This document shows, in pieces, positions 66 through 18,426 of a stretch of DNA of 25,525 nt. Where the stretch lies: positions 1 through 25,525 of the IMG/VR virus record IMGVR_UViG_3300046737_000182; one strand, given 5' to 3'. The translations under genes were made by a program, and so were the position numbers. How positions within the stretch are numbered: the first letter of the stretch is position 1; each line of letters starts with the position of its first letter. Source of the stretch: a virus. The notes below the pieces were generated by a model. The model saw nothing but the letters and a program-made list of their open reading frames with translations. It ran no database searches and was not told the DNA's origin.

Positions 66-821
66 CTACGCCCAGAGGGTCTCCATCATGTCCGCTACCC
101 TCTTCGCCCCCAGGCCGTCGACCATCGTCCGGCCCATCGACGCCATCCCCGCCAACGAGTTGGACTCTATCAGGGCATCGACGATCCCTTCGACGTCGGC
201 GTCCTGTTCCGCGTAGACCGCCGCTCCGCAGTTCACCAGGCCGACCTCGTTGAGGATGGTCCCGTCCCCTTCGTCGGCCGGAGTCAGAACGATCGCCCTC
301 CCGAGACACGCCGCCTCCAGAGAGACCATGCTCGCGCGCGCGACCACCACCTCGGCCCGGAGGATGGTCTGCGCCACCTGGGCCGCGGTCATGTCGCTGA
401 GAAGGCGGAGGTCTTCCACGCGAGTGAGCGGGTGGTAGTCGCCGCGGTCGATCTCACGGAACTCTCTGCGGAGGATCGCGTACTGAGGACCGAACAGCAT
501 CCGTCGTGCGGCCGGAACATGAGGTGGACGAGGAGGATAGATCGCTCCGACGGTGCCGTTCACGAGGAGGTCGGCGTAGGGGTGGAGGTGGTTCGGCCTG
601 TCCTCGATCACCATCAGCCGGACCCCGATCCCGGTGTAGAGGTCTCTCGGGAAGTCGTACCCGTCGATGATCGCCACGTCGTACGAGTGGGCGGTACCTT
701 GGAAGGACGTGGACAGGCTGGCCGACCATCCACGCTCCACGAGTTCGCACGCGAGCGCGCGGCAGCGGTTCAGGTGGCCGAGCCCGGCCTGGGACACGAC
801 GAACAGCGCGCGTGGCTTCAC
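66..821 (-). CDS. pseG: PseG-like UDP-sugar hydrolase (pseudaminic acid pathway), compact form
   Basis: This 251-residue protein resembles UDP-2,4-diacetamido-2,4,6-trideoxy-beta-L-altropyranose hydrolase, a GT-B-fold enzyme that removes UDP to free the sugar condensed by PseI. The N-terminus has the family motif GLGHLNRC (residues 13-20) with the expected active-site His16. Further matches are an IIDGYD strand near 51-56, GPQYAILRREF at 111-121 and a C-terminal segment with SLEAACLG near 167-174. Family members usually have about 280-360 residues. Here the middle stretch that normally carries the second Rossmann strand and glycine-rich loop after the GPQY motif is almost absent: only about 20 residues separate GPQYAILRREF from the next helix. 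The GTG start overlaps the upstream stop as GTGA; longer upstream frames do not look like protein. Activity on the canonical substrate is uncertain because of the shortening. Confidence 0.75.
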   Translation of the reverse strand: MKPRALFVVSQAGLGHLNRCRALACELVERGWSASLSTSFQGTAHSYDVAIIDGYDFPRDLYTGIGVRLMVIEDRPNHLHPYADLLVNGTVGAIYPPRPPHVPAARRMLFGPQYAILRREFREIDRGDYHPLTRVEDLRLLSDMTAAQVAQTILRAEVVVARASMVSLEAACLGRAIVLTPADEGDGTILNEVGLVNCGAAVYAEQDADVEGIVDALIESNSLAGMASMGRTMVDGLGAKRVADMMETLWA

Positions 822-1069
822 TCGACCACCTCCGTGAACCCTCCGGTCGTCACGAGGGCCTTGTTGCGGAAGAACTCGACGACGTTGATCGGGAACTCTA
901 CCTCGACGTCGGTGGAGAGGGTCATGCCGTCCACCCGGACCGAGCCGTTCCTGATCCAGCGGACGAGTTCGGAGTTCGACGGCCGGCGTCCTTCGGGGGG
1001 TTTGTTCTCTCGGCTCCACGGGACGGCCCTCTCGTCGCGCATCCACTTCAGGAAGTCCAGGGCGGTCAC
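818..1069 (-). CDS. Small S4-like phage protein, function unknown
   Basis: An 83-residue protein whose GTG start overlaps the upstream stop (GTGA) and whose stop overlaps the pseG start in the same way, so it is translationally coupled on both sides. The central segment RPSNSELVRWIRNGSVRVDG (residues 29-48) has the helix-turn-strand pattern of S4 RNA-binding domains, in which a Ser/Lys-rich helix is followed by a Gly-x-Val-x-Val-[ND]-Gly strand. The N-terminus (LDFLKWMRDERAVPWSRENK) is Trp- and charge-rich. Small proteins with this pattern occur in other tailed phages without known function. RNA binding is an inference from the motif alone. It has no obvious role in sugar synthesis despite its position among sugar genes. 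Confidence 0.6.
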   Translation of the reverse strand: MTALDFLKWMRDERAVPWSRENKPPEGRRPSNSELVRWIRNGSVRVDGMTLSTDVEVEFPINVVEFFRNKALVTTGGFTEVVE

Positions 1070-1530
1070 AGCTTGATCTTCCTCCCCTCGGACAGCACCG
1101 CCTGCGGAGGCTCTCTCTCTTCCCGCTCGGCGGCCGGACGGCTCTCCCGCATCTCGCCGGAGATCATGTTCTTTACGCTTACGGCCTCGCGCTGAGCGTC
1201 GAGGGTGCGGCGGAGGTTCCGGATCTGCTGCATCATCTCGTCGCGGAGGGACATCTGCTCCTGGATCTCCCCGGTGAGCCGGTCCCTCGTCAGGCGGACG
1301 CGACGCCAATCCTCGACGTCGACCCCCGACGGGTCCGGGCTCCCGTCGGTCCCCTCCTCGCGGATGAAACAGTTCACCGGCCGGCCGTAGAAGTTCTCCA
1401 CGACGATCTGGAACCCCATCGCTCTTACCTCTCGACTCGCGCGGTCGCCGAGGAACGAGGCCATCTGTCCCGCGGTCTGGTCCGGCCATTGGAACTCGTC
1501 GTTCAACTCGATGACGAACCGCCTCTTCAC
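1066..1530 (-). CDS. Hypothetical protein with central coiled coil
   Basis: A 154-residue protein of unknown family. The first 60 residues look like a small alpha/beta domain. Residues about 73-118 are a charged heptad-like helix expected to form a coiled coil, and 119-146 are charged and probably disordered. The protein ends in GRKIKL, a C-terminal signature that recurs in other genes of this window (15078-16148 and 17860-18426). The GTG start sits in a GTGA overlap with the end of the cytidylyltransferase gene, and its own stop overlaps the next gene, so all are co-translated. No catalytic motif is visible. Confidence 0.6.
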   Translation of the reverse strand: MKRRFVIELNDEFQWPDQTAGQMASFLGDRASREVRAMGFQIVVENFYGRPVNCFIREEGTDGSPDPSGVDVEDWRRVRLTRDRLTGEIQEQMSLRDEMMQQIRNLRRTLDAQREAVSVKNMISGEMRESRPAAEREEREPPQAVLSEGRKIKL

Positions 1531-2393
1531 TGGACCTTCTGCGTGACCGCCTTCAGCGACGTCTCTCTGATGATCTTCTCGACCTCGATCCGATCTTCGG
1601 AGACCGGCTCGAAGAACCCGACGACCTCTTGGAGGTGCTGCTCCGCGCGGGCGACGTTGATCTTCAGGAGTTCAGGGTTCTTGGAGAACAGAGCCATGAC
1701 GTCGGCGATGGTGACGTAGTCCTTCTCCGGGAACGCGGAGTAGATCGCGCGGACCAGTTCAAGGTCTTCGGGGTAGTCGACCGTGAGCCGCGACCCGATC
1801 AGGAACGCCGCGGTCTGAACGTCGGTGGTCTCGATCGGGTACCGCAGGTTCCCCAGGCGGAACGGCCGGTCCTGGTGGCGTCTGATCCACTCCGTGACGT
1901 GCTCCCTGTCCGAGACGTCCTTCGCTTTCTTGTGGGCCGCGCGCAGGGCGGTCGCGGAGAAGACCTCGACGTCGAGCCCGTGGGGGAACGTGCGGTCGAG
2001 GTTGTTCGAGACGTAGTCGAAGCCTCCCCCGAGGTACACAGCGATGGTAGAGTCGACGACGGACCAGTCGATCAGCGGACAATCCATCGTGACCCTCACC
2101 ACCGGGTCCGCCTTGTACCTCTTCGCGGCGGCGTTGTACCGGCTGAGCACGTTGGCCGGCGATCCTCGGAAGCACCGCCATCTTTTCGCCTTCACGAACT
2201 CCGCGAGGTCGTCGTCGGCCTCTCCCGTCGGGATGGCGACGACGATCTCTCTCAAAATCTTGGATCGTTGGAGCCGGTCCATCTGCCGCTCGATCAGGGT
2301 CTTTCCGCAGACGTCCGCGAGCACCTTCCGGGGGAGGCGTGTAGAGCCGAGCCTCGCCTGAACGATCGCGACGGGGTTAGGAGGCTTTCCCAA
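1527..2393 (-). CDS. SpsF/PseF-type cytidylyltransferase
   Basis: A 288-residue nucleotidyltransferase of the SpsF (spore-coat polysaccharide) / cytidylyltransferase family, which activates an acidic sugar with CTP. The GT-A-fold signature QARLGSTRLPRKVL is at residues 12-25. Other family blocks are CPLID at 105-109 (with the preceding Asp104 as likely metal ligand), GLDVE at 139-143, REHVT at 163-167 and LTVDYPEDL at 203-211. Length is close to that expected for the family plus a short helical tail. In nonulosonic-acid operons a protein of this type takes the PseF role of making the CMP-sugar, and the neighbouring pseB, pseC and pseG-like genes support that reading. The TTG start lies inside the end of the upstream gene. 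There is an AAGAAGG about 12 bases upstream, and no better in-frame start precedes the conserved N-terminus. Confidence 0.85.
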   Translation of the reverse strand: MGKPPNPVAIVQARLGSTRLPRKVLADVCGKTLIERQMDRLQRSKILREIVVAIPTGEADDDLAEFVKAKRWRCFRGSPANVLSRYNAAAKRYKADPVVRVTMDCPLIDWSVVDSTIAVYLGGGFDYVSNNLDRTFPHGLDVEVFSATALRAAHKKAKDVSDREHVTEWIRRHQDRPFRLGNLRYPIETTDVQTAAFLIGSRLTVDYPEDLELVRAIYSAFPEKDYVTIADVMALFSKNPELLKINVARAEQHLQEVVGFFEPVSEDRIEVEKIIRETSLKAVTQKVQ

Positions 2394-2520
2394 TGGTCGC
2401 CCCGACCTTCTTGATCATCTCGCGGCGGTGGGCCCGCCACGTTTTCCTGTCCCACGCGCGGACCTTCCGGTCTCGGTCCACCTTGCGGACCTTGCGGTAG
2501 AGGTCCTTCCTCTTCTTCAA
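2377..2520 (-). CDS. Small highly basic protein, unknown
   Basis: A 47-residue, very Lys/Arg-rich helical protein. The start is a TTG overlapping the upstream stop as TTGA, preceded by GGAGG at 5 bases, the best ribosome binding site available. Its stop lies 17 bases inside the cytidylyltransferase gene. The composition (about 40% Lys plus Arg) suggests nucleic-acid contact, but no domain is recognised. The longer upstream reading frame is Arg/Pro-rich out-of-frame sequence and was not used. Because it is short, the call rests on the start context and tight packing. Confidence 0.5.
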   Translation of the reverse strand: MKKRKDLYRKVRKVDRDRKVRAWDRKTWRAHRREMIKKVGATIGKAS

Positions 2521-2717
2521 ATCTTCCTCCCGATACCGAAGACCCTCTTCTGGGTGAACACGTCGTACGCGCAACGCTCGCACGTCCCGACGACGAGGCG
2601 AGAGCACTCGGGGCGGCAGCACAACTGTTTCCGGCCGCAATCGCAGACGTGCTCGTGGAGGCATCCGCACGCGTGGGCCGAGGACGTGACGAGCTTCACG
2701 TCCTTGCGGAAGTTCAA
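2517..2717 (-). CDS. Small Cys-rich zinc-knuckle protein
   Basis: A 66-residue protein with nine Cys and three His packed into residues 17-49, in the order CGCLHEHVCDC, then CC, C, and CERC. This is the spacing expected for one or two structural zinc sites. It resembles the many small treble-clef or zinc-ribbon proteins of tailed phages but matches none that I can name. The TTG start overlaps the upstream stop as TTGA, and its own TGA gives the next gene its TTGA start, so it sits in a coupled chain of three small genes between pseC and the cytidylyltransferase. It ends in GIGRKI, similar to the GRKI-type tails seen elsewhere in the window. Confidence 0.55.
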   Translation of the reverse strand: MNFRKDVKLVTSSAHACGCLHEHVCDCGRKQLCCRPECSRLVVGTCERCAYDVFTQKRVFGIGRKI

Positions 2718-3007
2718 GCGATCGCCTTGATCGCCTTGTCGAAGCGAGCGTCGAGCACCACCTCGCACGCTTTGCACTTCGAGCCGTGAGAGCGGATGAA
2801 CCGCTTCGCCTCTTCGATCGCGATCTGTCTCTTCTCGTGCGTCCGGTTCTTCTCGCGGAACTTCTTCAGCCGGTTCACGATCCGCAGAGCCTTGCGGAGT
2901 TGGTTGGGGAGGTGGGAATGGCCCCAGTAGTGCTCGGCCTTGCCTCGCGGCCGGCGGGTCTTCTTGCACTCTTTGTTTTTGCCGGGTTCCTGCGCTGGCT
3001 TCGCCAT
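2714..3007 (-). CDS. Small basic protein with one CxxC, unknown
   Basis: A 97-residue protein starting at an ATG that directly abuts the pseC stop codon. The first 75 residues are Lys/Arg-rich and mostly helical (MAKPAQEPGKNKECKKTRR onward). A single KCKAC motif follows near residues 77-81, then a short helical tail ending in KAIKAIA. It looks like a nucleic-acid-binding accessory protein with half a zinc site, but no family is recognised. Its last base pairs overlap the start of the Cys-rich gene downstream (TTGA). Confidence 0.55.
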   Translation of the reverse strand: MAKPAQEPGKNKECKKTRRPRGKAEHYWGHSHLPNQLRKALRIVNRLKKFREKNRTHEKRQIAIEEAKRFIRSHGSKCKACEVVLDARFDKAIKAIA

Positions 3008-4096
3008 CTACGAGAGCGCCTCCTCCAGCGCCCGGACCACGGCGGCGACGTCGTCGCTGGTCATGTTCGCGTGGAGCGGCAGCGAGAGTTCTTCCCTGGC
3101 CCACGCCTCTGCTTCAGGGAACTTGCCGGGAGTATAGCCGAACCGCGCGCGGTAGTACGGCTGAAGGTGGATCGGAGGGGAGTAGTGGACCTGGACCCCG
3201 AACCCTCTGTCGTTCATCTGTCCCTTCACGAGGTCGCGATCGTTGATCGAGTAGCTCGGATGAGTCCCGATCCGGACCGGGTACAGGTGGTACGCGCTGC
3301 CGATCTGGTCGACGGACGGAAGCTCCGGGATCATGAGGCGGTACAGTTCAGCCACGCGAGCCCGCTTCCACTTCCGGTCTTCGATCCGGGAGAACTGGCT
3401 GGCCCCGAGAGCGGCGCTCATCTCGTCCATGCGGTAGTTCCATCCGAGCTTCTGCATCAGGCCCCGCTCGTCACGTCCGTGAGACCGCAGCGCCCGGATC
3501 TCCTGCGCGAACCCTTCGTCGTTCGTCGTGACCGCCCCGCCTTCCCCGGTGGTCAGAGGCTTCACGGGGTGGAACGAGAACACGCACGCGAGGGAATGGG
3601 AGCACGACCCGACCTTCGAACAGCCGTCGTGGTCCATCGCCCCGAGGGCGTGACACGCGTCTTCGATCACGACCGGGTCTGTACACCCCTCGAACGTGTC
3701 GAGCCGCTCAGGGACGACGGCAGCGCGGCCGGCGAAGTGGACCGGCACCACCACCGTCTTGTCGGGGAACATCGAGCCGGGATGGACGTCCATCAGGGCG
3801 GTGGCCCTGTCCACGTCGATGAACGCGACGGCAGCGCCCGCCATGATCGCGGCGTTCGCCGTCGCCACGAAGGAGAGCGGGCTGGTCGCCACGCACCGCG
3901 CTCCGGCAGCCACGTAGGACAGGTGGAGGGCCGCGGTTCCGGAAGAGACCGCGACCGCGTACTTCGAACCGACGTACTCTGAAAGCTTCGACTCGAACAC
4001 CTCGACGGCCGTCCCTTGAGTGAGATACCCGGAACGGAGCGCCTCCAGGACCGCGGCCTCGTCCTCCGCCGTGATGGTCTGTTCGGAGTACCTCAT
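3008..4096 (-). CDS. pseC: PseC-type PLP-dependent sugar aminotransferase
   Basis: A 362-residue DegT/DnrJ/EryC1/StrS-family aminotransferase, most like PseC, which transfers an amino group to C4 of the UDP-4-keto-6-deoxy-L-sugar made by PseB. Seen in the sequence are SSGTAALHLS at residues 51-60 for phosphate/PLP binding, EDACHALGA at 145-153 with the Asp that contacts the pyridine nitrogen, and FHPVKPLTTGEGGAV at 175-189, where Lys179 is the Schiff-base lysine. GVQVHYSPPIHLQPYY at 300-315 is a typical C-terminal substrate block. Length is normal for the family. The ATG overlaps the end of pseB as ATGA, so the two first pathway enzymes are coupled. An alternative target (another UDP-4-keto sugar) is possible, but the pseB partner favours PseC. 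Confidence 0.88.
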   Translation of the reverse strand: MRYSEQTITAEDEAAVLEALRSGYLTQGTAVEVFESKLSEYVGSKYAVAVSSGTAALHLSYVAAGARCVATSPLSFVATANAAIMAGAAVAFIDVDRATALMDVHPGSMFPDKTVVVPVHFAGRAAVVPERLDTFEGCTDPVVIEDACHALGAMDHDGCSKVGSCSHSLACVFSFHPVKPLTTGEGGAVTTNDEGFAQEIRALRSHGRDERGLMQKLGWNYRMDEMSAALGASQFSRIEDRKWKRARVAELYRLMIPELPSVDQIGSAYHLYPVRIGTHPSYSINDRDLVKGQMNDRGFGVQVHYSPPIHLQPYYRARFGYTPGKFPEAEAWAREELSLPLHANMTSDDVAAVVRALEEALS

Positions 4097-5049
4097 ACCG
4101 TCTTCAGCCTCTCGCGAAGCGCCGCGATGTTCAGCCACGTCCGCGGCTTGTCGCTCCGAAGCTCGAACCCTTCCGGCAGCTTCCAGCCCCCGAGGACCGC
4201 GCTGCGGACGAACATCCCGTCCACGCTCTTGAACTCCCTGGCCTCGTCCGAAGAGATCATGCTCTCGTGGAGCTTCTCCCCAGGCACCATCTCCATCGGC
4301 TCGAAGTCCGGGTCCTCCGGGTACGCGATGGCGATCGCGAGGTCTTCCAGCCGGAACGACGGCAGGTCCGGCACCACCAGTTCCCCGCCGCTCGCGTTGC
4401 GCATCGTCCAGAAGGCCAGGTCGACCGCTCCTCCGAGGGTGAACCAGAACCGGGTGGCGTCGCGGTTCGTGATGGGGAGAGGACGGCCGGCCTGTACCAA
4501 CTCTCTCCACCTGGGGATGACGGACCCTCTGGAGTTCGCCACGTTGCCGTACCTGACCACCGCGAACGTGGTCCGGTTGTTCACGTAGGACGCGGACGAG
4601 GTGAAGACGTGCTCCATGCAGGCCTTCGACGCTCCGTACGTGGTGGACGGGGCGCACGCTTTGTCGGTGGACAGGGCGACCACCTTCAGCACCCCTCGCT
4701 CCATCGCCGCGGCCATCACGTTCATGGACCCGAGGACGTTGGTGCTCATCGCCTCGGTGGGGTTGTACGCGCACGATTCGATCCGCTTGAGGGCGGCCGC
4801 GTGGAAGACGTACTGCACGTCGAGCATCGCGATGCGGAGCCTCTCGCGGTCGCGGACGTCCCCGAGGAAGAACCGCAGCCGGGGATCGTCTCCGAAGACG
4901 CGGCGCATCTCGGCCTGCTTCACCTCGTCGCGGCTGAAGACGCACACGCGGCGCGGGCCGTCGGCCATCGTCAGCAGGCGGTTCGTCGCGGCCTGTCCCC
5001 ACGAGCCGGTGCCGCCCGTGATGAGGACCGTCGACCCTGAGAGGTTCAT
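4093..5049 (-). CDS. pseB: PseB-type UDP-GlcNAc 4,6-dehydratase (5-inverting)
   Basis: A 318-residue extended short-chain dehydrogenase of the CapD/FlaA1/PseB group, first enzyme of pseudaminic acid synthesis. The NADP-binding loop is TGGTGSWGQA at residues 11-20. The catalytic set is Asp129, Lys130 and Tyr138 with Lys142 in YGASK; this spacing matches that known for Helicobacter PseB (Asp132/Lys133/Tyr141). HAAALKRI at 83-90 and the C-terminal GEKLHESM block at 257-264 are also typical. Length is near the usual 320-345. The start codon is only 8 bases after the CCA end of the upstream tRNA gene, and there is no Shine-Dalgarno. Processing of the tRNA 3' end would therefore leave an almost leaderless message. 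Confidence 0.9.
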   Translation of the reverse strand: MNLSGSTVLITGGTGSWGQAATNRLLTMADGPRRVCVFSRDEVKQAEMRRVFGDDPRLRFFLGDVRDRERLRIAMLDVQYVFHAAALKRIESCAYNPTEAMSTNVLGSMNVMAAAMERGVLKVVALSTDKACAPSTTYGASKACMEHVFTSSASYVNNRTTFAVVRYGNVANSRGSVIPRWRELVQAGRPLPITNRDATRFWFTLGGAVDLAFWTMRNASGGELVVPDLPSFRLEDLAIAIAYPEDPDFEPMEMVPGEKLHESMISSDEAREFKSVDGMFVRSAVLGGWKLPEGFELRSDKPRTWLNIAALRERLKTV

Positions 5050-5057
5050 GTGATGGA

Positions 5058-5132
5058 TGGAGCGCCCGGAACGACTTGAACGTTCGACCTCCCGCTTACA
5101 TCGCGGTCGCTCTTTCGCTGAGCTACGGGCGC
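5058..5132 (-). tRNA. tRNA-Thr-like (anticodon TGT) with encoded CCA, atypical loops
   Basis: Reading the minus strand, a full cloverleaf can be drawn. There is a perfect 7-bp acceptor stem (GCGCCCG with CGGGCGC), a 4-bp D stem (GCTC/GAGC), an anticodon stem with four GC pairs plus an A-G mismatch, a perfect 5-bp T stem with loop TTCAAGT, and an encoded CCA end. The anticodon loop GATGTAA places TGT at 34-36, decoding ACA, a codon that should be rare in this GC-rich genome. G1-C72 and C2-G71 agree with threonine identity. Two oddities: position 33 is A instead of the nearly universal U, and the 7-base D loop (AGCGAAA) lacks the GG pair that contacts the T loop. It may be a divergent functional tRNA or a decaying one. 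Confidence 0.7.
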
Positions 5133-5134
5133 GT

Positions 5135-5194
5135 TGGTAGGCGAGGACGGGGTCGCACCGCCGCTCGGAAGCTGGTCACGAGAACCACCCGCCT
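5135..5194 (-). tRNA. tRNA-like RNA, 60 nt, without normal D and anticodon arms
   Basis: Two bases upstream of the tRNA-Thr-like gene. It has a 7-bp acceptor stem (AGGCGGG with CTCGCCT, one G-T pair), discriminator A, an encoded CCA, and a 5-bp T stem (GGCGG/CCGTC) with loop TGCGACC that keeps T54, C56, G57 and A58. Between acceptor and T stem there are only 24 bases, against about 40 in a normal tRNA. They can fold as GGT(TCTCGTG)ACC and GCT(TCCG)AGC mini-hairpins. If the first is an anticodon arm, the triplet would be TCG (Arg) with C at position 33. This could be a deletion remnant, a tRNA-like decoy or processing signal. The acceptor/T-arm half is convincing; decoding function is not. Confidence 0.5.
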
Positions 5195-5203
5195 TCACGA
5201 ACG

Positions 5204-5524
5204 TCACTTCAAGACTCCGAATTTTCGCATGAACGGCCTGACGCGTTCCCTGTCCATGGGCTCTACGCCCAACGCCGTGGGCGCGCCAGAGTACGGCGGG
5301 TCCGGCTCCCGGACCAGGACATGATGGATGTTCGCACGCTTCAACTCTTCGGAAAGTTCTAAGAGTTCCGCGCTGCTATCCGCCACCAGGAGAACGACGT
5401 GAGTGCCCTCCGGGACCGGCACCGTGCGGACCGACTCCGCCGCAGCGTGGGCCGCTTGGCAGGCCGCGACCCCGACCCTGTTCCCGCACGATTTGTGGAG
5501 GACGAGGTATTGGTAGGTCGGCAT
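5204..5524 (-). CDS. PTH2-family peptidyl-tRNA hydrolase
   Basis: A 106-residue protein that fits the archaeal/eukaryotic-type peptidyl-tRNA hydrolase Pth2, which recycles tRNAs from stalled or drop-off peptidyl-tRNA. The N-terminal strand YQYLVLHK is followed by GVAACQAAHAAAES (residues 18-31), the conserved CQxxHA helix. A central VVLLVADSSAELLEL segment follows, and the C-terminal APTALGVEPMDRERVRPF (81-98) matches the Pth2 block with conserved Thr and Gly. PTH2-like proteins are found sporadically in bacteria and phages. The ATG overlaps the upstream stop as TGATG. It lies just 10 bases upstream of two tRNA-like genes, a placement that suggests joint function in tRNA handling. Confidence 0.78.
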   Translation of the reverse strand: MPTYQYLVLHKSCGNRVGVAACQAAHAAAESVRTVPVPEGTHVVLLVADSSAELLELSEELKRANIHHVLVREPDPPYSGAPTALGVEPMDRERVRPFMRKFGVLK

Positions 5525-6180
5525 CAGATTCTCTCGCGGACGATCGCGAACGCCTCCGCGTACATAGCTCCGACGATCGACCCGTTGGAGATCATCCGGG
5601 GGAGTATGACGTCCCACGACCGAGGGTGAGGTCGCTGCCGGATCTCCCCCGTGTACTGAGCGATGGCGCGGGCTTTTGACTGGACGTGAGGAGGGGATAG
5701 TTCGACGAACGAGGTAGGACGCATCGGCTCTCCCCACTCGGATGAAGACACTACTTCAAAGGTCGCCAAGCGGCGGACCGTCGACCCAGGAAGCGGACGG
5801 CAGGCTGTCTGAACCGCGTCGTTCACGATCCGGTGGTCGACGTTGCGGTCCCCGTGGTGGTGAGTGTAGACCAACTCCGGAGAGCACTCGCGGACGTACC
5901 TCTCGACCGACTTGACGAGGTCGAGGAGCGGTACGGTGTCGAGACGGTTGTCGGGGAAGTCTTCGAGGATCAGACGTGAAACCCCGAGGACGGTCGCGGA
6001 CGCCTGCGCCTGGTTACGGAGAGTCTCGATCGACTCAGCGGCGACACCTTCGCGAGAGGTTACGCCTGTACCGACGACGAGAATCACTACCTCGTCTCCC
6101 TGCGACACATGGCGGGCCAACGTCCCGCCGCATCCCAGTTCGACGTCGTCCGGGTGAGCGCCGACCGCGAGCACCTTCAT
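5524..6180 (-). CDS. PIG-L/LmbE-family deacetylase
   Basis: A 218-residue zinc-dependent N-acetylglucosaminyl deacetylase-type protein. The signature AHPDDVELGCGGT is at residues 8-20, supplying His9 and Asp12 to the metal site and Asp11 as probable general base. The second metal motif is HHHGDRNVDHR at 107-117, with His116 as the third ligand. Length is typical (about 210-250). Known substrates of the family include GlcNAc conjugates, mycothiol and bacillithiol precursors and antibiotics, so the actual substrate cannot be read from sequence. In this sugar-gene block, removal of an N-acetyl group from a nucleotide sugar or glycan is the simplest reading. ATG start in TGATG overlap with the preceding small gene. 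Confidence 0.88.
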   Translation of the reverse strand: MKVLAVGAHPDDVELGCGGTLARHVSQGDEVVILVVGTGVTSREGVAAESIETLRNQAQASATVLGVSRLILEDFPDNRLDTVPLLDLVKSVERYVRECSPELVYTHHHGDRNVDHRIVNDAVQTACRPLPGSTVRRLATFEVVSSSEWGEPMRPTSFVELSPPHVQSKARAIAQYTGEIRQRPHPRSWDVILPRMISNGSIVGAMYAEAFAIVRERI

Positions 6181-6422
6181 CAGACAGGCCTTGGCTTTTT
6201 ACCCTTGATGACCGCCGACGGGCAGATGTGCTGGTTCACCAGGAGTAGGTACGAGCCGTCTACCCTCGGGCCTTCGAGCGGGGTCGCGACCGCGGTAGTA
6301 GACCCGCAAGCACAGGTGATGGTGATGTCTTCGAACTCGCTGATGTTCCCGACAGCGGCGAGTTCTTGCGGGGTCGGGAGCCAGATGGTCCGCACGTTGC
6401 TGTAGTTGCACTGGAGTGGCAT
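6180..6422 (-). CDS. Hypothetical 80-residue protein
   Basis: An 80-residue protein with no recognised family. The sequence is mixed beta-like (ITITCACGSTTAV in the middle, SYLLLVNQHICPSAV near the end) with four Cys in total, two of them in a CAC pair, and a basic C-terminus KGKKPRPV. The ATG is well supported by AAGGAG seven bases upstream, which lies in the end of the preceding membrane-protein gene. The stop overlaps the PIG-L start (TGATG). No signal peptide or catalytic motif is visible. Confidence 0.55.
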   Translation of the reverse strand: MPLQCNYSNVRTIWLPTPQELAAVGNISEFEDITITCACGSTTAVATPLEGPRVDGSYLLLVNQHICPSAVIKGKKPRPV

Positions 6423-6426
6423 TCGA

Positions 6427-6552
6427 TTACTCCTTGTCGTTTCGTTCTTCGAGAGCGGCAGCGATCCGGTTCAACGCTCCGGTCGCGTCTCCCAACTCAC
6501 AGATCAGAAAGAAGGCGATCGCTACGACGACGAGCCACCCTCCGAAGCTCAA
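6427..6552 (-). CDS. Small single-helix membrane protein
   Basis: A 41-residue protein. Residues 6-20 (WLVVVAIAFFLICEL) form one hydrophobic transmembrane helix, followed by a charged cytoplasmic-like tail with alternating Ala/Leu and Glu/Arg ending in ALEERNDKE. The TTG start overlaps the wbqC-like stop as TTGA and has GGAGG seven bases upstream, which decides this start over the long out-of-frame extension. Function is unknown. Size and topology fit small phage membrane proteins such as antiholins or spanin-like accessory proteins, but nothing specific supports those names. Confidence 0.6.
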   Translation of the reverse strand: MSFGGWLVVVAIAFFLICELGDATGALNRIAAALEERNDKE

Positions 6553-7271
6553 GAGATCCTCCCGACGATCCCCCCGGACGCCATGATCTCGCGGGCCTTC
6601 TCGCGGGGGACGTTCAGCAGAAGGTCGAGAGAGGACAGCTTCGAGATGAACTCCAGCCGGCCGTTCTGAGGGTAGACGGCCCCGGTGTAGGTCTGGATCA
6701 TCGCCTCGACGCCAGCGTCGGCGAACGCCTTCGCGTCCACGTAGTCCGCGCCGACCGCTCCGAACAGGAACTTCCACGCGCCGACCTTCTTGCAGACGTC
6801 GACGAGCAACTGGTTCTTCGCGGTCGTCACGCCGAGCTTCGACTGCGTCTGTACTTTCGTGGTGACGGCGAACGTGCGGAGGAGGTAGTTCAGGATCGCG
6901 TCGTTGAGGCCGACGAGCGTGGGCCAGTTCTGAGCGTACAGCCACCGCAGGTACGGCTCGTGGGTCTTCCACTCCGGGCAACCCGAGTAGGACAGTTCGA
7001 TGGACCGCATGTGCTTCCGCCGCCAGTCGTGCTCGTTGGCGATCTCGACCTGCCGGACCGGAGTACCGTCGTGTCCTTCGAGGCTCTTGGAGTGGCGGAC
7101 GGGGACGGTGAGCCACTGCGGCCCGTTCGGCCCCAGGATCTTGTTGCGGTTCTCGTAAGAGCCGGAGTCGTGCGGCAGGTCGTCGAGGAGGACGAACACG
7201 TCCGCGCTGGCGATCTTGTGGACGTACCCGAGCCACGGCCAGTACGCGGTTTGGTGAGCGGTGGCGATCAC
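6549..7271 (-). CDS. wbqC: WbqC-family protein
   Basis: A 240-residue WbqC-like protein, a family found in O-antigen and other surface polysaccharide clusters and thought to act in nucleotide-sugar or glycan modification; its chemistry is not settled. The N-terminal signature AHQTAYWPWLGYVHKIASAD (residues 5-24) is followed by VFVLLDDLPH, YENRNKILGPNGPQWLTVPV (39-58) and WRRKHMRSIELSYSGCPEW (83-101). These are the conserved family blocks in order. Length is normal. The GTG start lies two bases after the upstream stop and gives the expected N-terminus; upstream in-frame sequence does not look coding. It sits between a Rossmann-like protein gene and a PIG-L deacetylase, consistent with a glycan-modifying set. 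Confidence 0.85.
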   Translation of the reverse strand: MIATAHQTAYWPWLGYVHKIASADVFVLLDDLPHDSGSYENRNKILGPNGPQWLTVPVRHSKSLEGHDGTPVRQVEIANEHDWRRKHMRSIELSYSGCPEWKTHEPYLRWLYAQNWPTLVGLNDAILNYLLRTFAVTTKVQTQSKLGVTTAKNQLLVDVCKKVGAWKFLFGAVGADYVDAKAFADAGVEAMIQTYTGAVYPQNGRLEFISKLSSLDLLLNVPREKAREIMASGGIVGRIS

Positions 7272-7273
7272 CG

Positions 7274-8302
7274 CTACATGCCTTCGAGCTTGCCGCCGCG
7301 ACCGTAGTGCTCGGTCCACGAGGCGGCGCTGCCGGCGAACTCTACCTGCGCGCTCATCCGGTTCAGAGCGTCCACGCCCTGCTTGATGGAGTCGTTGACC
7401 TCCGGCAGCCGCTTGTTCGCGAACTCCAGGATGTCCTTCATAGACTTCCCTTCGGCCGCCTGCTGGATGATCCACTCGAACGCCTGTTTGGTGCCGGTGG
7501 TCATGTTCACGAACGCCGCGGCCTTCTGCTGCTCCTGCTCGATCTTCGCCCGCGTGTTGTTGAAGAACGTCACGAGGCCGGCCATGCCTTCGGTCGTCGA
7601 AGGCGGCTCGGTGTACCCGTAGACGTAGTTCGCCTTCAGCATCGCGGAGGCTTGCGGCACGTAGACCCTGATCCCCAGGCCGCGGGCGATGCCGATCCAG
7701 TACTCGCAGCCGGGCCGCTGGTACGCGTACTCCTCAGACTGGAGGAGGTCGATGCCGTAGAGGTGGATCTCGCCGGCCCCCTCGAAGATGGCGTGCGCCA
7801 TCATCTCGCCGGGGGTGGAGGTGAAGTAGTCGAGTTCGGCCTGCGGTCCGAACATCGCCGTGGTCCACTTGTTGATCTCTTCGCGCGGCCACCTCACCGA
7901 CGCGGGGATGTCGTCGTAGTGGTCCTGCATGTAGATCGGCCGGAACTTCTCCCCCTCGACGGGGCCGCTCTGTTTCTTCAGCCAATCTACGTGCTCGGTC
8001 CCGAGTTGCTTGAGTTCGGCGCGGTTCAGATCCTTCGCGATGTGCTCGCGCGGGTGGATCTCGTACCAGCGATCCCACCGCGGCAGGAACGCATAAAGCG
8101 AGTTCAACCCCCAGATCTCGAACGACGTGTCGTCGAACGGGGCCTGGTTCCGCGACGACGAAGCGAACCCGACGATCGCGACCTTGCGGTCCGGGTTCAG
8201 CTTCCAGCCGGAGCGGTCGGCGATGGTCTTGGGGACGAGGTCGAACTTGCGGCCGGTGCTGCCGGCGATGACGACAGGGGTAGGGGCCTTCTGGCTATCC
8301 AA
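7274..8302 (-). CDS. Rossmann-like phage protein, possible nucleotide/sugar-binding, with helical tail
   Basis: A 342-residue protein whose core (residues about 38-225) has a phosphate-loop-like strand KVAIVGFASSSRNQAPFDD (40-58) and EIWGLNSLY (62-70). Later come FTSTPGEMMAHAIFEGA (160-176) and IHLYGIDLL (179-187) with QRPGCEYWIGIARGLGI (195-211). This pattern occurs in uncharacterised phage proteins and recalls the DUF115/MAF and MptE-like fold used by flagellin glycosylation and pterin enzymes, but I cannot assign a reaction. Residues about 235-325 are helical, with many Gln, Glu and Lys. The start is TTG with a strong AGGAGG four bases upstream. It is the first gene after the portal and may be a glycosyltransferase-like or nonulosonate-transfer protein (inference). 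Confidence 0.6.
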   Translation of the reverse strand: MDSQKAPTPVVIAGSTGRKFDLVPKTIADRSGWKLNPDRKVAIVGFASSSRNQAPFDDTSFEIWGLNSLYAFLPRWDRWYEIHPREHIAKDLNRAELKQLGTEHVDWLKKQSGPVEGEKFRPIYMQDHYDDIPASVRWPREEINKWTTAMFGPQAELDYFTSTPGEMMAHAIFEGAGEIHLYGIDLLQSEEYAYQRPGCEYWIGIARGLGIRVYVPQASAMLKANYVYGYTEPPSTTEGMAGLVTFFNNTRAKIEQEQQKAAAFVNMTTGTKQAFEWIIQQAAEGKSMKDILEFANKRLPEVNDSIKQGVDALNRMSAQVEFAGSAASWTEHYGRGGKLEGM

Positions 8303-8321: not shown

Positions 8322-8393
8322 GATCAACGAGGTCCGCAGTGCATCGGACGCCACTGCTCTGGTGCGCCCTCCGGTGAGGAGTGCTCGTTGATC
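8322..8393 (-). promoter_or_regulatory. Structured intergenic RNA element (three-way junction) after the portal gene
   Basis: A perfect 10-bp inverted repeat (8322-8331 and 8384-8393) encloses two small hairpins, GCAGTG/CACTGC (8336-8341 with 8352-8357) and CCTC/GAGG (8368-8371 with 8376-8379). The right arm includes the portal stop codon. The strong AGGAGG of the next gene lies just outside the left arm. There is no T-run, so it is not an intrinsic terminator. A role in translation control or mRNA processing between portal and cargo genes is an inference. Confidence 0.5.
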
Positions 8394-10521
8394 ACCGCCC
8401 GATATTGTAGGGCTGGCCCTGGTCGAACGGAAGTTCCGGCTGAGCGCCCTCTTCGACCACGCGCACGAGAGCGTCGGGGTACCCGAGGAGCCTCTTCGCC
8501 GCCAGGCGGTGATGACCGTCGGCGATGTAGTACTTCCCGGCGCGCTCGACGACGAGGGGTCGGTCGATAAGCTGTCCGCTCATGGACCGCTGACCGGGGG
8601 CGACGGCCGCGGGGTTCTCCATGAACGCGCGGACGCTGTCCCTTCGGACGGACGGCTGAGTCGCCACCAAGTCCTTGATCGCCACGTGCTTGAGCGGCAT
8701 CGCGTCCACGTTCATCGCGATCGTCATCGCCTTCGGGTCGAACGGGACAGGGTCGGCGATCTTGAACCCGTGGGCCACCTGATCGTTCGCGCCGACCGCC
8801 TGTCTGTCGCGGAGGATGCTGAGCGCCTCCCCGACGACGCCGGAGGGCGGGCTCCACTTGCCGCGGGTGTTGCGAGGCTGAGCGCGGTGGTACTTCTTGA
8901 GCGGCTCTTTCTGCCCCGGCTGTTTCTGGGGCGGCTTCATCTGGCCGCGCGTAGGCTTTCCTCCGCCGGCCGACGAAGGCTTGCCGGGCTTGCCGAACGC
9001 GCCTCCGCCTCCGCCCGCGGGCTTCGCGTCGGGGTTCGCCATCGCCGCGAGGGTCGCCTGCCGCATCTCCATCTCGTACGCCTGCTGCTCCTGCTGCTCC
9101 GCGAGAGCCTCTTCGCTCCGCTCCGGCCATCCGGCCTCCTCGCGGATGTGGTTCTCCAACTGCTCGTCGGGGAAGATCGGCATGCCCGCCTGCGAGAGCA
9201 TCTGCACCGCGTGGGCCAGCGATTCAAGGTCCTTGTCCTGCGCCTCTCCGTGGCCGAGCTTGCACATCCGGTCCATCGGCCAGCCGTTCAGAGCGTACAG
9301 CCGCGGGAAGGCGTGGCGGTTGAACACCGCGCAGATCGAGTCCATCCACGCGTTCAGCGCGGTGCCGATGGTGTTCTTCGTCTTGTCCTTGGAGAGCGCG
9401 AACGAGCCGACCTTGTCGTGGCCGAGGAGGAGACCGTCCGCCAGCATGGAGATCGCGAGCCGCGTCTCGTGCCGCGTGATCACCTTGTCGAAGTCGAAGA
9501 TGGTGGTCGCGCCCTGCACGCCGAGGAGGGACAGCTTGAACAGCGGTTGCTTGGTGACCGGGTCGTACGCTTGCGGGATGACGATGCCGCTCTGCTCGTC
9601 GAGCCGGATGTTCTTCACGATCTTCTTCGCCATCGTGTAGACCGCAAGCTGCGCGGCGGTGGCGCTGGCCCCCATGTTCACCGCGGGGATCTCCATGACG
9701 GGGACGCCTGTCGCGTCGCGCTCTCCGCGGATCGCTTCAAGCTCGGTCATCCGCTTGATCATGTACCAGTTGAAGTACGCGGAGCGGAGGACGCTCGTGC
9801 CTTCGGGGTTGTCCTTCTCCACCCGCGGCCGGAACAGGAGGAGCTTCTCGATCGGGATCCGCCGCATCTGGTAGTCGGGCGGAGGAAGCTGGATCATCGC
9901 CTTGACCCCGCCCTCGTCGTCGAACTCCCACCGGAACAAGGTGTCCTGACCGCGCAAGGCGATCTTCCGCCAGGTGATCAGGCCGTCGTCGAACCGCGAC
10001 CGCGTGCCCGGATCGTCGGTCCACCCGCTGCACTTCTTGTAGACCAACTCCATCGGCGCGTAGCCGTACAGGATCATCGAAGCGATCTCGCTGATGGTGT
10101 CCTGCCACGAGTGGCTCATGTCTTCGAGAGCGCCCTCGACGCGCTCGGCCCGCTCGTGGTCTTCGTCGGTCGCCTCTTCGCCCTGATCGTGATACGGCTC
10201 GACGTACTTCGAGATGCCGCGGATGCTGAGGTCGATCAGCCGGAAGATCCCGCCGACGAGCGCCGAGTTGTCGATGATCTCTCGGTACGCCTGCGCGCCG
10301 CGCGGGTTCTGGAGGTTGGAGAGGAACTCCTCGAAGACGAACCCGCCGAACTGCTTGAGGCCGGATCGCCCGACCTGGATGAACGGAGAGATCTCGAACG
10401 GCTTGTCCATCGAGGTGCCGTACATCGCGGCCTGCGTAGCGGTGGCGGGCTCCGGCTGTTCGACGATCGCGGCCGGCTCGACCTCGTTGCGCTGTTCCGG
10501 CCCGTCTGGAGTGGTCGCCAT
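8392..10521 (-). CDS. Phage portal protein (DUF935/Mu gp29-like) fused to a C-terminal ParB-like domain
   Basis: A 709-residue protein. Residues about 35-480 are a DUF935-type portal that forms the dodecameric DNA gate of the capsid vertex. Family blocks seen are LRGQDTLFRWEFDDEG (189-204), IPIEKLLLFRPRVEKDNPEG (222-241), SVLRSAYFNWYMIKR (243-257) and AIRGERDATGVPVMEIP (263-279). Residues about 495-560 are a Gly/Pro/Lys-rich linker. Residues about 600-692 are a ParB/sulfiredoxin-like fold domain, with a strand-helix MPLKHVAIKDL start, a long disordered insert, and KYYIADGHHRLAAKRLLGY (663-681), the classical DGHHR motif. The usual portal of this family is about 450-550 residues, so the extension is extra. 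ATG start two bases after the terminase stop. Confidence 0.9.
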   Translation of the reverse strand: MATTPDGPEQRNEVEPAAIVEQPEPATATQAAMYGTSMDKPFEISPFIQVGRSGLKQFGGFVFEEFLSNLQNPRGAQAYREIIDNSALVGGIFRLIDLSIRGISKYVEPYHDQGEEATDEDHERAERVEGALEDMSHSWQDTISEIASMILYGYAPMELVYKKCSGWTDDPGTRSRFDDGLITWRKIALRGQDTLFRWEFDDEGGVKAMIQLPPPDYQMRRIPIEKLLLFRPRVEKDNPEGTSVLRSAYFNWYMIKRMTELEAIRGERDATGVPVMEIPAVNMGASATAAQLAVYTMAKKIVKNIRLDEQSGIVIPQAYDPVTKQPLFKLSLLGVQGATTIFDFDKVITRHETRLAISMLADGLLLGHDKVGSFALSKDKTKNTIGTALNAWMDSICAVFNRHAFPRLYALNGWPMDRMCKLGHGEAQDKDLESLAHAVQMLSQAGMPIFPDEQLENHIREEAGWPERSEEALAEQQEQQAYEMEMRQATLAAMANPDAKPAGGGGGAFGKPGKPSSAGGGKPTRGQMKPPQKQPGQKEPLKKYHRAQPRNTRGKWSPPSGVVGEALSILRDRQAVGANDQVAHGFKIADPVPFDPKAMTIAMNVDAMPLKHVAIKDLVATQPSVRRDSVRAFMENPAAVAPGQRSMSGQLIDRPLVVERAGKYYIADGHHRLAAKRLLGYPDALVRVVEEGAQPELPFDQGQPYNIGR

Positions 10522-10523
10522 CT

Positions 10524-11924
10524 TCAGTACCCGAAGCGGGCCTTGATGCCCATCGTCCTCATCATCGCCTCAGCGTCGCCGCCGCCGTCGTCGTCGCCTC
10601 CGACCCCTGGCACATCGTAGCCGAACGCGGCCCTTTCGGTCGATGTCTTCTCCATGGACCACGGCAGCGAACGGGTCGCCACGCCGTATCGCGAGGCACC
10701 GCGGTAGGCCAGGGCGAGAGCGATGACGCAGTCGTCGTGCTTCCCCGGCGGTGCGGAGTACGACACGTAGTTCTCCCGCCGCTCGGGCTTGAAGGCCCGC
10801 AACTCGTTGATGAGCACCGGCAGTTCCGGGAGGCCGACGATGTCCTGGTCGAAGGCCACCGCGAGCGCCTCGATCAGCGGCCCCTTGGTGGAGCGGGTGA
10901 ACACGAACGGCTCGATCCCGAGGCCGGCGCGCATCAGGTTCTCCGTGGGAGAGTCGCCGATGGACGTGGCGTCGATGACGACCCACGGCTGTCCCAGTTT
11001 CCAGAAGGCGGTCTTGATGCGGGCCTCCTGGAGAGCCCAGTCGAGTTCGTTAAAGCGGTCGAAGTACGTGACGTGGAACTCGGAGCACATCCCGAGCACC
11101 ACGGTGAAGTCGAAGCTCTTGGCGAGGTCGACCCCCATCGCCGCGGTGGGGTGCTCGGTGCAGAACTGTCCGCCCATCCGCGTGACCGCGTCCGTCACCT
11201 TCCGGAAGACCGAGGTGGCGTCTCCGAGGAACTCCGCGAGGATCTCCTGCTGGTAGGTCTCCGCGCTCATGTCGCGGGCGAGGTCGTCGATCTCGTCGCG
11301 GGGGATGAACGGGTTCATGTACGAAGGCACACCTCTGGTGGCGGATGTGCATATCGACCAGTAGTCGGGGAACGCGGGATCCTGGCCTCTGGTGAACACG
11401 TCCCAGAACCAGTTGAGCCCCTTGGGGGTGCCCGTGAGGAGGGCGGGGGCTTTGTGGTCTACCATCGTCGGGCGGATGGATTCTTCCCAGACGCGCTCGG
11501 CGATGATGCCGGCCTCGTCGATCCACACCGCGAGGAGACCTTCCCCGACCAGGCGGCCAGGGTTCACGGCAGACTTGAACTCGATCGTGACGGGCCCCAT
11601 GTGGATCGCCTGCGGCTGCATCTCGGTGCCGTGAGTGCCCGTGATCCAGCCGGAAGGGGCCAGCCGCATGATCTTGCGCCACGCGATGCGGCCGATGTCG
11701 TACGTGGGGAAGATGACCCAGATGATCCCGCGCTTGCCGCGGAGCCGCGCGTCTTGCGCTTTGCGGAGGAGCCACATGACCGCGCCCTCCGACTTCCCCA
11801 GGCGGCGGCCGGCGGGCCAGACGATGATCCTCTTCTCCGACATGAGGACCGACCGCTGGATCTCGTGGACGAGCCACTGCTTCGCGGGGAACCCGTCGGG
11901 GCCGAGGACGGCGGCGGTGCTCAC
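10524..11924 (-). CDS. terL: Terminase large subunit
   Basis: A 466-residue packaging motor that cuts and translocates phage DNA into the prohead. N-terminal ATPase: Walker A AGRRLGKS at residues 38-45, Walker B with catalytic Glu in AVWIDEAG at 132-139, coupling motif LLTGTPKG at 162-169. C-terminal RNase H-like nuclease: Asp265 in MGVDLAKSFDF (263-273), Asp318 in WVVIDATS (314-321), and Asp397/Asp398 in KHDDCVIALALAY (395-407). The Gly/Asp-rich tail near 441-452 is probably disordered. All catalytic positions are present and length is normal. The GTG start overlaps the terS-like stop as GTGA; the long upstream frame extension overlaps terS and is not protein-like. Confidence 0.95.
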   Translation of the reverse strand: MSTAAVLGPDGFPAKQWLVHEIQRSVLMSEKRIIVWPAGRRLGKSEGAVMWLLRKAQDARLRGKRGIIWVIFPTYDIGRIAWRKIMRLAPSGWITGTHGTEMQPQAIHMGPVTIEFKSAVNPGRLVGEGLLAVWIDEAGIIAERVWEESIRPTMVDHKAPALLTGTPKGLNWFWDVFTRGQDPAFPDYWSICTSATRGVPSYMNPFIPRDEIDDLARDMSAETYQQEILAEFLGDATSVFRKVTDAVTRMGGQFCTEHPTAAMGVDLAKSFDFTVVLGMCSEFHVTYFDRFNELDWALQEARIKTAFWKLGQPWVVIDATSIGDSPTENLMRAGLGIEPFVFTRSTKGPLIEALAVAFDQDIVGLPELPVLINELRAFKPERRENYVSYSAPPGKHDDCVIALALAYRGASRYGVATRSLPWSMEKTSTERAAFGYDVPGVGGDDDGGGDAEAMMRTMGIKARFGY

Positions 11925-12433
11925 GTACTCCGCGTTTCGAGAGCGGCCGCTCCGACGGTGGCTTCGATCACCTTCATCGGCGGGATCACGTCGTTCAGCG
12001 GGGCCGAGTTCGACTCCACCACCGTGATCGTGAGCGACGACGCCGACTGGTAGTCCTCGGTCATCGCGAGCTTGATCGGCAGCGGCACCTTGCCGTCGAG
12101 CCGCTCGCTGATCTCTTGGATGGGACGCGCGCGGCCGCGGGCGATCGCGTGGATGTACAGCGCCTCCCCGTACGCCTCGCCCCACGTCTTCCCGCGGAAG
12201 GCCTTCAGGCCGCAAGGCTTCTCCCAGAGTTCCGAGATCATCTGCGCCACGATGCGCTGCCTCGACTTCGGAGGTCTGCCGGCGGGGTTGCCGCTCTGCC
12301 CCGGCTGGAACCGATACTGCCGCCCGGACTCCTGCAACATCTCGTACCGCTCTTGACGCGCGGACGGATCGTCTGCCGCGTCGTCGTCGTCTTCGCCCTG
12401 ATCCAGACTGATGTCTTCCTGATCTTCGTCCAC
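11921..12433 (-). CDS. DUF5681-type protein, probable terminase small subunit
   Basis: A 170-residue protein with an acidic N-terminus (DEDQEDISLDQGEDDDDAAD within the first 22 residues). Then comes RFQPGQSGNPAGRPPKSRQR (41-60), the DUF5681 signature with FxPGQSGNPxGRPxG. A helical region with AYGEALYIHAIARGRARPIQ follows. DUF5681 proteins commonly sit just before the large terminase in phages and prophages and are likely DNA-recognition small subunits. The GTG at 12433 is the only usual start; the upstream frame is open to about 12590 but has no ATG, GTG or TTG. The stop overlaps terL (GTGA). Confidence 0.8.
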   Translation of the reverse strand: MDEDQEDISLDQGEDDDDAADDPSARQERYEMLQESGRQYRFQPGQSGNPAGRPPKSRQRIVAQMISELWEKPCGLKAFRGKTWGEAYGEALYIHAIARGRARPIQEISERLDGKVPLPIKLAMTEDYQSASSLTITVVESNSAPLNDVIPPMKVIEATVGAAALETRST

Positions 12434-17860: not shown

Positions 17861-18426
17861 CAGAACGGCACGTCCGAGTCAGAGGGTTCCCCCAACTTGA
17901 TCTTCCGGTCCGGCTCCGGACGCGGCTCGTCGTCGTGAGGAAGAACTCGGTCGAGGATCTCGCGGAGAAGTTCCTGGTTCTTCGCCGCGAGGTCGAGGCT
18001 GTTGATCGCGTTCTCTACCCGACATCTAACGCGATCGATGGCCGTCACTATGTCCGCCATGTCGTCGTCGCCCGGGTGGAGAGCCTGGACCGCGACGGCG
18101 GCGCTGCGGAGTTCGCGGAGGCTCTCCTTCCATTCCCGAACGGTGTTCCTCGCTACAGGGTCGAAGACGTCGGACAGCCGGCGGCTCTCGTCCTCGATGA
18201 TCATCCGCAGCATGCCGGCGGTCCTGCCCGGACCTCGGTTTGATTCGAGGACGCGCTGACGCCCTCGCGGCTCGTCGTCGTCTCCGCCGTTCTGGATCTC
18301 CATCTTGATCGCCACCAGGAGAGCGCAGTCGTCCGGTTTTTCGAGGCATTCGCTGTGGCCTTTGACGTGGTCCGGGCTCCGGTAGAGAGCCTGGGTCAAG
18401 GCTCGCTTCGCACGGGTCATGGGCAT
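17860..18426 (-). CDS. Hypothetical 188-residue protein with KIKLGE tail
   Basis: A largely helical protein. The N-terminus (MPMTRAKRALTQALYRSPDH) is basic. C27 and C34 flank an acidic turn. Residues about 70-165 form long amphipathic helices with RMIIEDESRRLSDVF, TVREWKESLRELRSAAVAV and LAAKNQELLREILDRVL. The acidic C-terminal end carries DRKIKLGEPSDSDVPF (residues 173-188), an SSB-like acidic tail preceded by the recurrent RKIKL signature. No family recognised. Start ATG in TGATG overlap with DUF5131; a second ATG two codons later is possible. Confidence 0.6.
   Translation of the reverse strand: MPMTRAKRALTQALYRSPDHVKGHSECLEKPDDCALLVAIKMEIQNGGDDDEPRGRQRVLESNRGPGRTAGMLRMIIEDESRRLSDVFDPVARNTVREWKESLRELRSAAVAVQALHPGDDDMADIVTAIDRVRCRVENAINSLDLAAKNQELLREILDRVLPHDDEPRPEPDRKIKLGEPSDSDVPF

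Follow-up and report, generated by a model that had tools for sequence, protein, structure and literature searches.

We analyzed IMG/VR virus record IMGVR_UViG_3300046737_000182, a linear genome fragment of 25,525 bases that is cut at base 1. The entire record is called the window below. An initial annotation, made from the sequence alone, had placed pseB, pseC, a cytidylyltransferase gene and a gene for a PseG-like hydrolase at positions 66-5049, on the same strand as the terminase and portal genes, and had proposed that the virus carries most of a route to a nonulosonate activated with cytidine monophosphate (CMP). We found that family models bear out these genes and their strand, and that the gene identities, together with the terminase and portal genes, uphold the proposal. 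We also found that the glycosylation module extends past this region. It includes genes for a WbqC family protein, a PIG-L deacetylase and, above all, a protein encoded at 7274-8302 that resembles sialyltransferases. All of the larger genes of the window that were recognized in family scans are on the minus strand, as are the other window features described below. We computed the gene identities, the catalytic motifs of PseB and PseC, the sialyltransferase similarity of the 7274-8302 family, and the co-occurrence of that family with NeuB and CMP-sugar synthetases.

Genes for nonulosonate synthesis

The gene at 4093-5049 encodes a PseB-type UDP-N-acetylglucosamine (UDP-GlcNAc) 4,6-dehydratase and that at 3008-4096 a PseC-type aminotransferase. 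The best of all NCBIfam models for PseB was TIGR03589 (311.6 bits, E 5e-93), followed by FnlA (217.9 bits). For PseC the best model was TIGR03588 (342.1 bits, E 4e-102), followed by an ArnB-type model (180.6 bits) and LegC (151.1 bits). An origin of the two proteins in unrelated dTDP- or UDP-sugar pathways, which the initial annotation had named as an alternative, is ruled out by this ranking, in which the Pse-type models outscore those relatives. The closest structures in the Protein Data Bank (PDB) were H. pylori FlaA1 for PseB (2gn4, E 1.9e-71) and H. pylori PseC for PseC (2fn6, E 1.5e-45). When aligned with these structures, PseB keeps the catalytic T-x9-Y-x3-K (T128, Y138 and K142) and PseC keeps the pyridoxal phosphate lysine motif SFHPVKPLTTGEGGAV, within SFHxxKxxTTxEGGAV. 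The pair suggests a pseudaminic-type sugar.

We found that PseB of the window groups with viral and not with bacterial homologues. Relatives of PseB were present in 359 viral contigs, as determined with an alignment-based scan. (A scan with the single PseB sequence had matched only L001 and no bacterial locus, and a scan with seed alignment A1 then succeeded. Single-protein scans with the PseG-like protein and the terminase large subunit found no relatives.) In a tree of 96 sequences, a check that had been proposed for PseB, the window copy fell in a viral clade with L001, L013, L023, L027, L058 and L059 (Shimodaira-Hasegawa-like approximate likelihood ratio test values of 93 and 91, at nodes that are not starred). 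This placement indicates that PseB was not captured recently. Together with the terminase and portal genes, it rules out that the window is host chromosome with a leftover of packaging genes. A caveat is that IMG/VR may include some cellular records: L049 grouped with bacteria in the tree. Unverified records that looked like contaminants, such as Staphylococcus phage SA 1298 Kay, were kept out of the argument, and L007, a row of alignment A1, is one such record.

The protein encoded at 1527-2393 is a putative CMP-nonulosonate synthetase. It matched CTP_transf_3 (PF02348) with 88.2 bits (cut-off 22.6), and its closest PDB structure was 6oew (E 3e-33). Of the two types that had been offered for this cytidylyltransferase, SpsF and PseF, the first stood and the second did not, because the PseF model TIGR03584 gave just 24.7 bits and did not reach its cut-off of 205.7. 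The protein encoded at 66-821 (251 residues) is a reduced PseG/SpsG-like hydrolase (TIGR03590, 49.3 bits, E 5e-13) that probably starts at the GTG at 821 and not at 1046. It keeps the N-terminal GxGHxxRC with the catalytic histidine, as GLGHLNRC (alignment A3). Its AlphaFold model was confident (predicted local distance difference test [pLDDT] score of 89.5), and the structural matches were GT-B enzymes such as MurG.

The description of these four genes as one coupled operon held in part. PseB and PseC share 4 bases, and a chain of overlaps runs from SpsF through two small open reading frames (ORFs) to PseG. The two small phage ORFs encode 154 residues with no family (1066-1530) and, in the ORF list, 82 residues overlapping the PseG start (821-1069). 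PseC and SpsF, on the other hand, are separated by phage ORFs and by a gap of 320 bases before SpsF, the widest in the 66-8302 gene run. An ORF of 97 residues lies directly after PseC (2714-3007; ORF list and family scan).

The simplest reading of the left end is that the window is cut midway through a nonulosonate cassette. The contig end leaves only the first 19 codons (MEVLFLNPPSVPYNMLVKS...) of the next gene (1-57), which had no relatives by motif search in the fetched loci. Because this start does not resemble NeuB, a NeuB gene would have to be located beyond it. Where sampled bacterial loci had the order PseB-PseC-SpsF-PseG (12 loci), NeuB followed in every case. Of 50 other viral records that were chosen for PseB and searched whole, 48 had NeuB; 39 of the 48 matches were strong (E <= 1e-25) and the others were weak or in pieces. 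The phages with the nearest PseB relatives, L027 and L059, contain PseB, SpsF/NeuA, NeuB-family, GNAT-like acetyltransferase and amidotransferase-like genes in the same cassette, amid structural genes (the GNAT-like and amidotransferase-like genes were read from the sequence by eye). The pathway in the window is probably partial by truncation at the contig end and not by design. Nonulosonate genes are common in phages, and are more widespread than the initial annotation had assumed. By eye, L027 (15035-16798) and L059 (6512-8376) contain N-acetyl sugar amidotransferase-like (PseA/WbpG-like) and HisF-like genes, suggesting acetamidino-substituted sugars. A 634 kb phage (L006; LR745206) has a PseB-like gene within a long glycan cassette of genes that, by eye, are glycosyltransferase-, formyltransferase- and polysaccharide-deacetylase-like.

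A sialyltransferase-like gene beside the portal gene

We found a candidate for the nonulosonate transferase that the initial annotation had recommended looking for. It is the unannotated gene at 7274-8302, which that annotation had overlooked. We refer to the phage family of this gene as X83. Family scans did not assign the window protein to any Pfam, NCBIfam or PHROG family. We built a profile from 13 relatives, and its comparison with 177,635 PDB sequences gave nine matches up to E 10, all of them sialyltransferases of glycosyltransferase family 42 (GT42), including CstII (E 0.0014), a lipooligosaccharide sialyltransferase (E 0.05) and CstI (E 0.11). A profile of 52 members gave the same order, with a best GT42 match at E 0.0013 and the first unrelated match at E 0.69. 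Foldseek searches with an AlphaFold model agreed: the top eight matches were all CstI or CstII (E 7e-5 to 7e-3), and the next, unrelated, was at E 0.03. The alignment of X83 with GT42 covers the nucleotide-binding half. A comparison of alignment A2 with one CstII fragment using hhalign covered only 32 columns (probability 72%), which is too little alone. Among the 52 members, the commonest weak Pfam matches were to MptE-like/DUF115 (six members) and CST-I (three members, best E 0.0021). No member reached the CST-I cut-off, and the window protein had no CST-I match. Some phage MptE-like proteins were among the structural matches. Based on these similarities we suggest that the gene at 7274-8302 is a candidate nonulosonyl transferase gene.

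Across 83 sequences, the residues G45, H83, P139, G183, E191 and Y228 of X83 are invariant. These enzyme-like residues and the linkage to CMP-sugar genes described below make it less likely that X83 is an ordinary structural protein. One copy (L011, 17296-19056) is interrupted in the conserved motif region, between GVDMATN and TEYG, by an intein-like insertion. Inteins are often found in active sites, and the insertion would fit this copy being an enzyme.

X83 co-occurs with genes for CMP-nonulosonate synthesis. We found X83 relatives in 242 viral contigs. NeuB was present in 18 of 50 X83 records and in none of 36 control phage records, a single control set that was picked by the DUF5131 (phage Gp37/Gp68-type) gene of the window (18426-19340). 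When only records of at least 30 kb were counted, NeuB was present in 12 of 16 X83 records and 0 of 22 controls (Fisher p 7e-7). Cytidylyltransferases of the CTP_transf_3 family (CMP-sugar synthetases) were found in 24 of the 50 X83 records and 0 of the 36 controls, and 14 of the 16 large X83 records had NeuB or a cytidylyltransferase (p 1e-8). The X83 copies of the large records are diverse (median identity 34%; 14 groups at 50%), and the signal therefore does not come from one lineage. NeuB directly adjoins X83 in L197 and L215, and a cytidylyltransferase gene does so in L182, L183, L178 and L170.

X83 is found among head genes. In a survey of 93 neighbours at 30 loci, the commonest families within two genes of X83 were major head proteins, head-tail adaptors and prohead proteases. 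The closest copy (L169) has a Mu-type portal gene directly before X83, as in the window. Microcystis phage Mvi-Yong1342-1 (PP496355), the only isolated phage with X83 found in a collection of 50,697 records, has the gene directly before its terminase genes. This homologue (L284, 7953-8756) is annotated as a 'type 11 methyltransferase', probably a misannotation.

Neighbouring genes

Two bases separate the X83 gene from the WbqC gene that follows it (6549-7271; PF08889, E 1e-56). Next is a gene for a PIG-L/BshB1-like de-N-acetylase (5524-6180; PF02585, 97 bits; PDB 2ixd) that overlaps both of its neighbours. WbqC was recurrent beside nonulosonate genes in phage and bacterial loci. In phages, WbqC and PIG-L recur together with these genes in L067 and in L001, where PIG-L, WbqC and NeuB are consecutive. 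These three genes of L001 (984-11469) are on one strand, and genes for a cytidylyltransferase, a methyltransferase, PseB and a short DegT protein are on the other. The isolated Vibrio phages VH2_2019 and V-YDF132 have a PIG-L/WbqC pair upstream of terminase, in which the WbqC assignment of the first gene is a partial match.

Between the deacetylase gene and PseB (5058-5524), a tRNA-Tyr (GTA) gene (5058-5132; ARAGORN) adjoins a gene for a PTH2-family peptidyl-tRNA hydrolase (5204-5524; PF01981, E 3e-10). The tRNA gene is 8 bases upstream of PseB. On the other side of X83 are genes for a Mu-type portal protein (8392-10521; PF06074, E 2e-29), the terminase large subunit (10524-12215 as an upper bound of the ORF; PF03237 and PF17289) and a DUF5681 protein that is probably the small terminase (11921-12433; PF18932, E 5e-9). 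The C-terminal domain of the portal protein is a ParB-like nuclease domain (ParBc_2) that scored slightly under its cut-off.

Proposed pathway and alternatives

We suggest, with a probability of roughly 0.55, that the region from 66 to 8302 encodes a phage CMP-nonulosonate pathway together with its own transferase. From the computed results we infer the activities, the sugar, the missing steps and the acceptor. PseB and PseC would convert UDP-GlcNAc to a UDP-4-amino-4,6-dideoxy sugar. Conversion of this sugar to a nonulosonate of the pseudaminic or legionaminic type would need an acetyltransferase and NeuB/PseI, with genes either past the truncated left end or in the host, and may also involve the reduced PseG. 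Charging of the nonulosonate with CMP would fall to the SpsF-type enzyme, and transfer of the activated sugar to the GT42-like protein encoded at 7274-8302. Trimming or substitution of the sugar is probably the role of WbqC and the PIG-L deacetylase. The position of the X83 family among head genes suggests that a virion protein may be the acceptor; the main alternative is a host surface glycan. We propose more tentatively that X83 is a large unnamed phage family with a GT42/Maf-like fold, a gene of the head block that puts phage-made nonulosonic sugars on virion proteins, and that many phages are so equipped.

Several observations weigh against this interpretation. The scores of PseB (311.6 versus 407.75 bits) and PseC (342.1 versus 423.5 bits) are under the equivalog cut-offs of their models, and that of the PseG-like protein is under the TIGR03590 cut-off (49.3 versus 153.55 bits). 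The PseG-like protein is also without approximately 68 residues at the start of its second domain, including GGxD, and has ADEGD in place of the ADNQ of PseG. The profile alignment behind these gaps included the window sequence, and only the TIGR03590 score is independent. Hydrolase activity of this reduced protein is doubtful. The 25,525-base record has no match to PF03102 (NeuB/PseI), in agreement with the initial annotation on PseI, and no PseH was found among the annotated ORFs of the window, where no search with a dedicated PseH model was made. Because the record is cut at base 1, the missing PseI and PseH say little. For X83, the profile E-values are modest, the AlphaFold model is only fair (pLDDT 70; predicted template modelling score 0.56), and the template modelling scores to the Foldseek matches are 0.30-0.44. 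The region of CstII that holds its catalytic histidine has no counterpart in X83, and for this reason we do not claim membership in GT42. The co-occurrence statistics come from fragment records and one control set, with kinship handled by the diversity check only. Finally, NeuB and a cytidylyltransferase are both missing from the complete genome of phage PP496355, which has X83. Either its host supplies the donor, or the X83 family also uses other donors.

Remodelling of the host surface is a possible but doubtful alternative. The CMP-nonulosonate would alter host capsule, lipopolysaccharide or flagellin, which would prevent superinfection or protect the cell, and the 7274-8302 protein would transfer the sugar to a host acceptor. 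The six X83 members with weak matches to MptE-like/DUF115, the domain of Maf flagellin transferases, would fit this, although none of the scores is significant and X83 has no flagellin context. There are also precedents: phage O-acetyltransferases act on nonulosonates (PMC6586298), and the prophage genes epaA and epaB convert capsular pseudaminic acid of Acinetobacter to its 8-epimer (PMC12053666). The epa genes are phage genes that act on pseudaminic acid, as those of the window may, but they modify a sugar made by the host, whereas in the window the pathway itself is phage-borne. Against host remodelling, X83 lies amid capsid, protease, adaptor and portal genes and not in a lysogenic-conversion region, and family scans of the window recognized no integrase or flippase.

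It is unlikely that the phage only boosts a precursor for a host that provides PseH and PseI, with the 7274-8302 product an unrelated head-assembly protein. A 25.5 kb record without NeuB and a complete Microcystis phage that has X83 without sugar-synthesis genes speak for this reading, but NeuB accompanies PseB in nearly all of the viral records searched, and X83 both co-occurs with CMP-sugar genes and is enzyme-like in its invariant residues (G, H, E and Y). Still less probable is decaying cargo, a captured bacterial pse cluster that is eroding and has no current function. The partial loss of the second PseG domain (with its GGxD and ADNQ) and the interleaved phage ORFs are in its favor. However, the frames are all open and tightly spaced, the catalytic motifs of PseB and PseC are intact, PseG still has a confident predicted fold, and PseB belongs to a viral clade.

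The window shares its enzymes and gene order with the 12 sampled bacterial pseudaminic acid loci (PseB-PseC-SpsF/PseF-PseG-PseI). In contrast to these operons, it is in a phage genome, has a reduced PseG, is cut before any PseI or PseH, adds WbqC, PIG-L and the GT42-like gene, and adjoins the portal gene. In Bacillus subtilis, the PseB-like SpsM belongs to a legionaminic acid pathway with UDP-linked steps (SpsM, C, D, G, E and F; PMC7439481), and the product of the window pathway therefore cannot be named from these genes. The two systems have in common a PseB-like first enzyme with a T-x9-M/Y-x3-K triad and SpsF- and SpsG-type proteins; the triad of the window has Y, as in PseB, and not M, and equivalents of SpsD and SpsE are not in the window. 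X83 matches CstI and CstII in profile searches and, with a model of only fair quality, in predicted fold, over the nucleotide-binding half. It differs in its very low identity, the different position of its conserved histidine, the absence of the CstII lid with its catalytic histidine, and the lack of a Pfam match at gathering level.

A review lists pseI in a table of marine phage functions (PMC6359870). The capsids of mycobacteriophages Che8 and Rita are glycosylated, with phage-encoded transferases and glycans on the major capsid proteins (as told in PMC11256854). That account places the Che8 and Rita transferase genes near the 3' end of the genome and does not mention nonulosonates. In the openly accessible literature, which leaves most subscription papers outside, we came across no account of X83-type transferases, nor of phage cassettes for CMP-nonulosonates linked to them.

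Sugar genes in phages are usually interpreted as metabolism borrowed from the host. Our results link a candidate transferase family to the synthesis of CMP-nonulosonates. The Pfam and PHROG models that we searched did not recognize this family, which spans diverse viral contigs and lies beside capsid genes. The gene at 7274-8302 and the isolated phage PP496355 are available for direct tests of transferase activity. If our interpretation is correct, phages use sialic-acid-like sugars to coat their particles or their hosts, and this would have consequences for adsorption, phage recognition and competition between phages.

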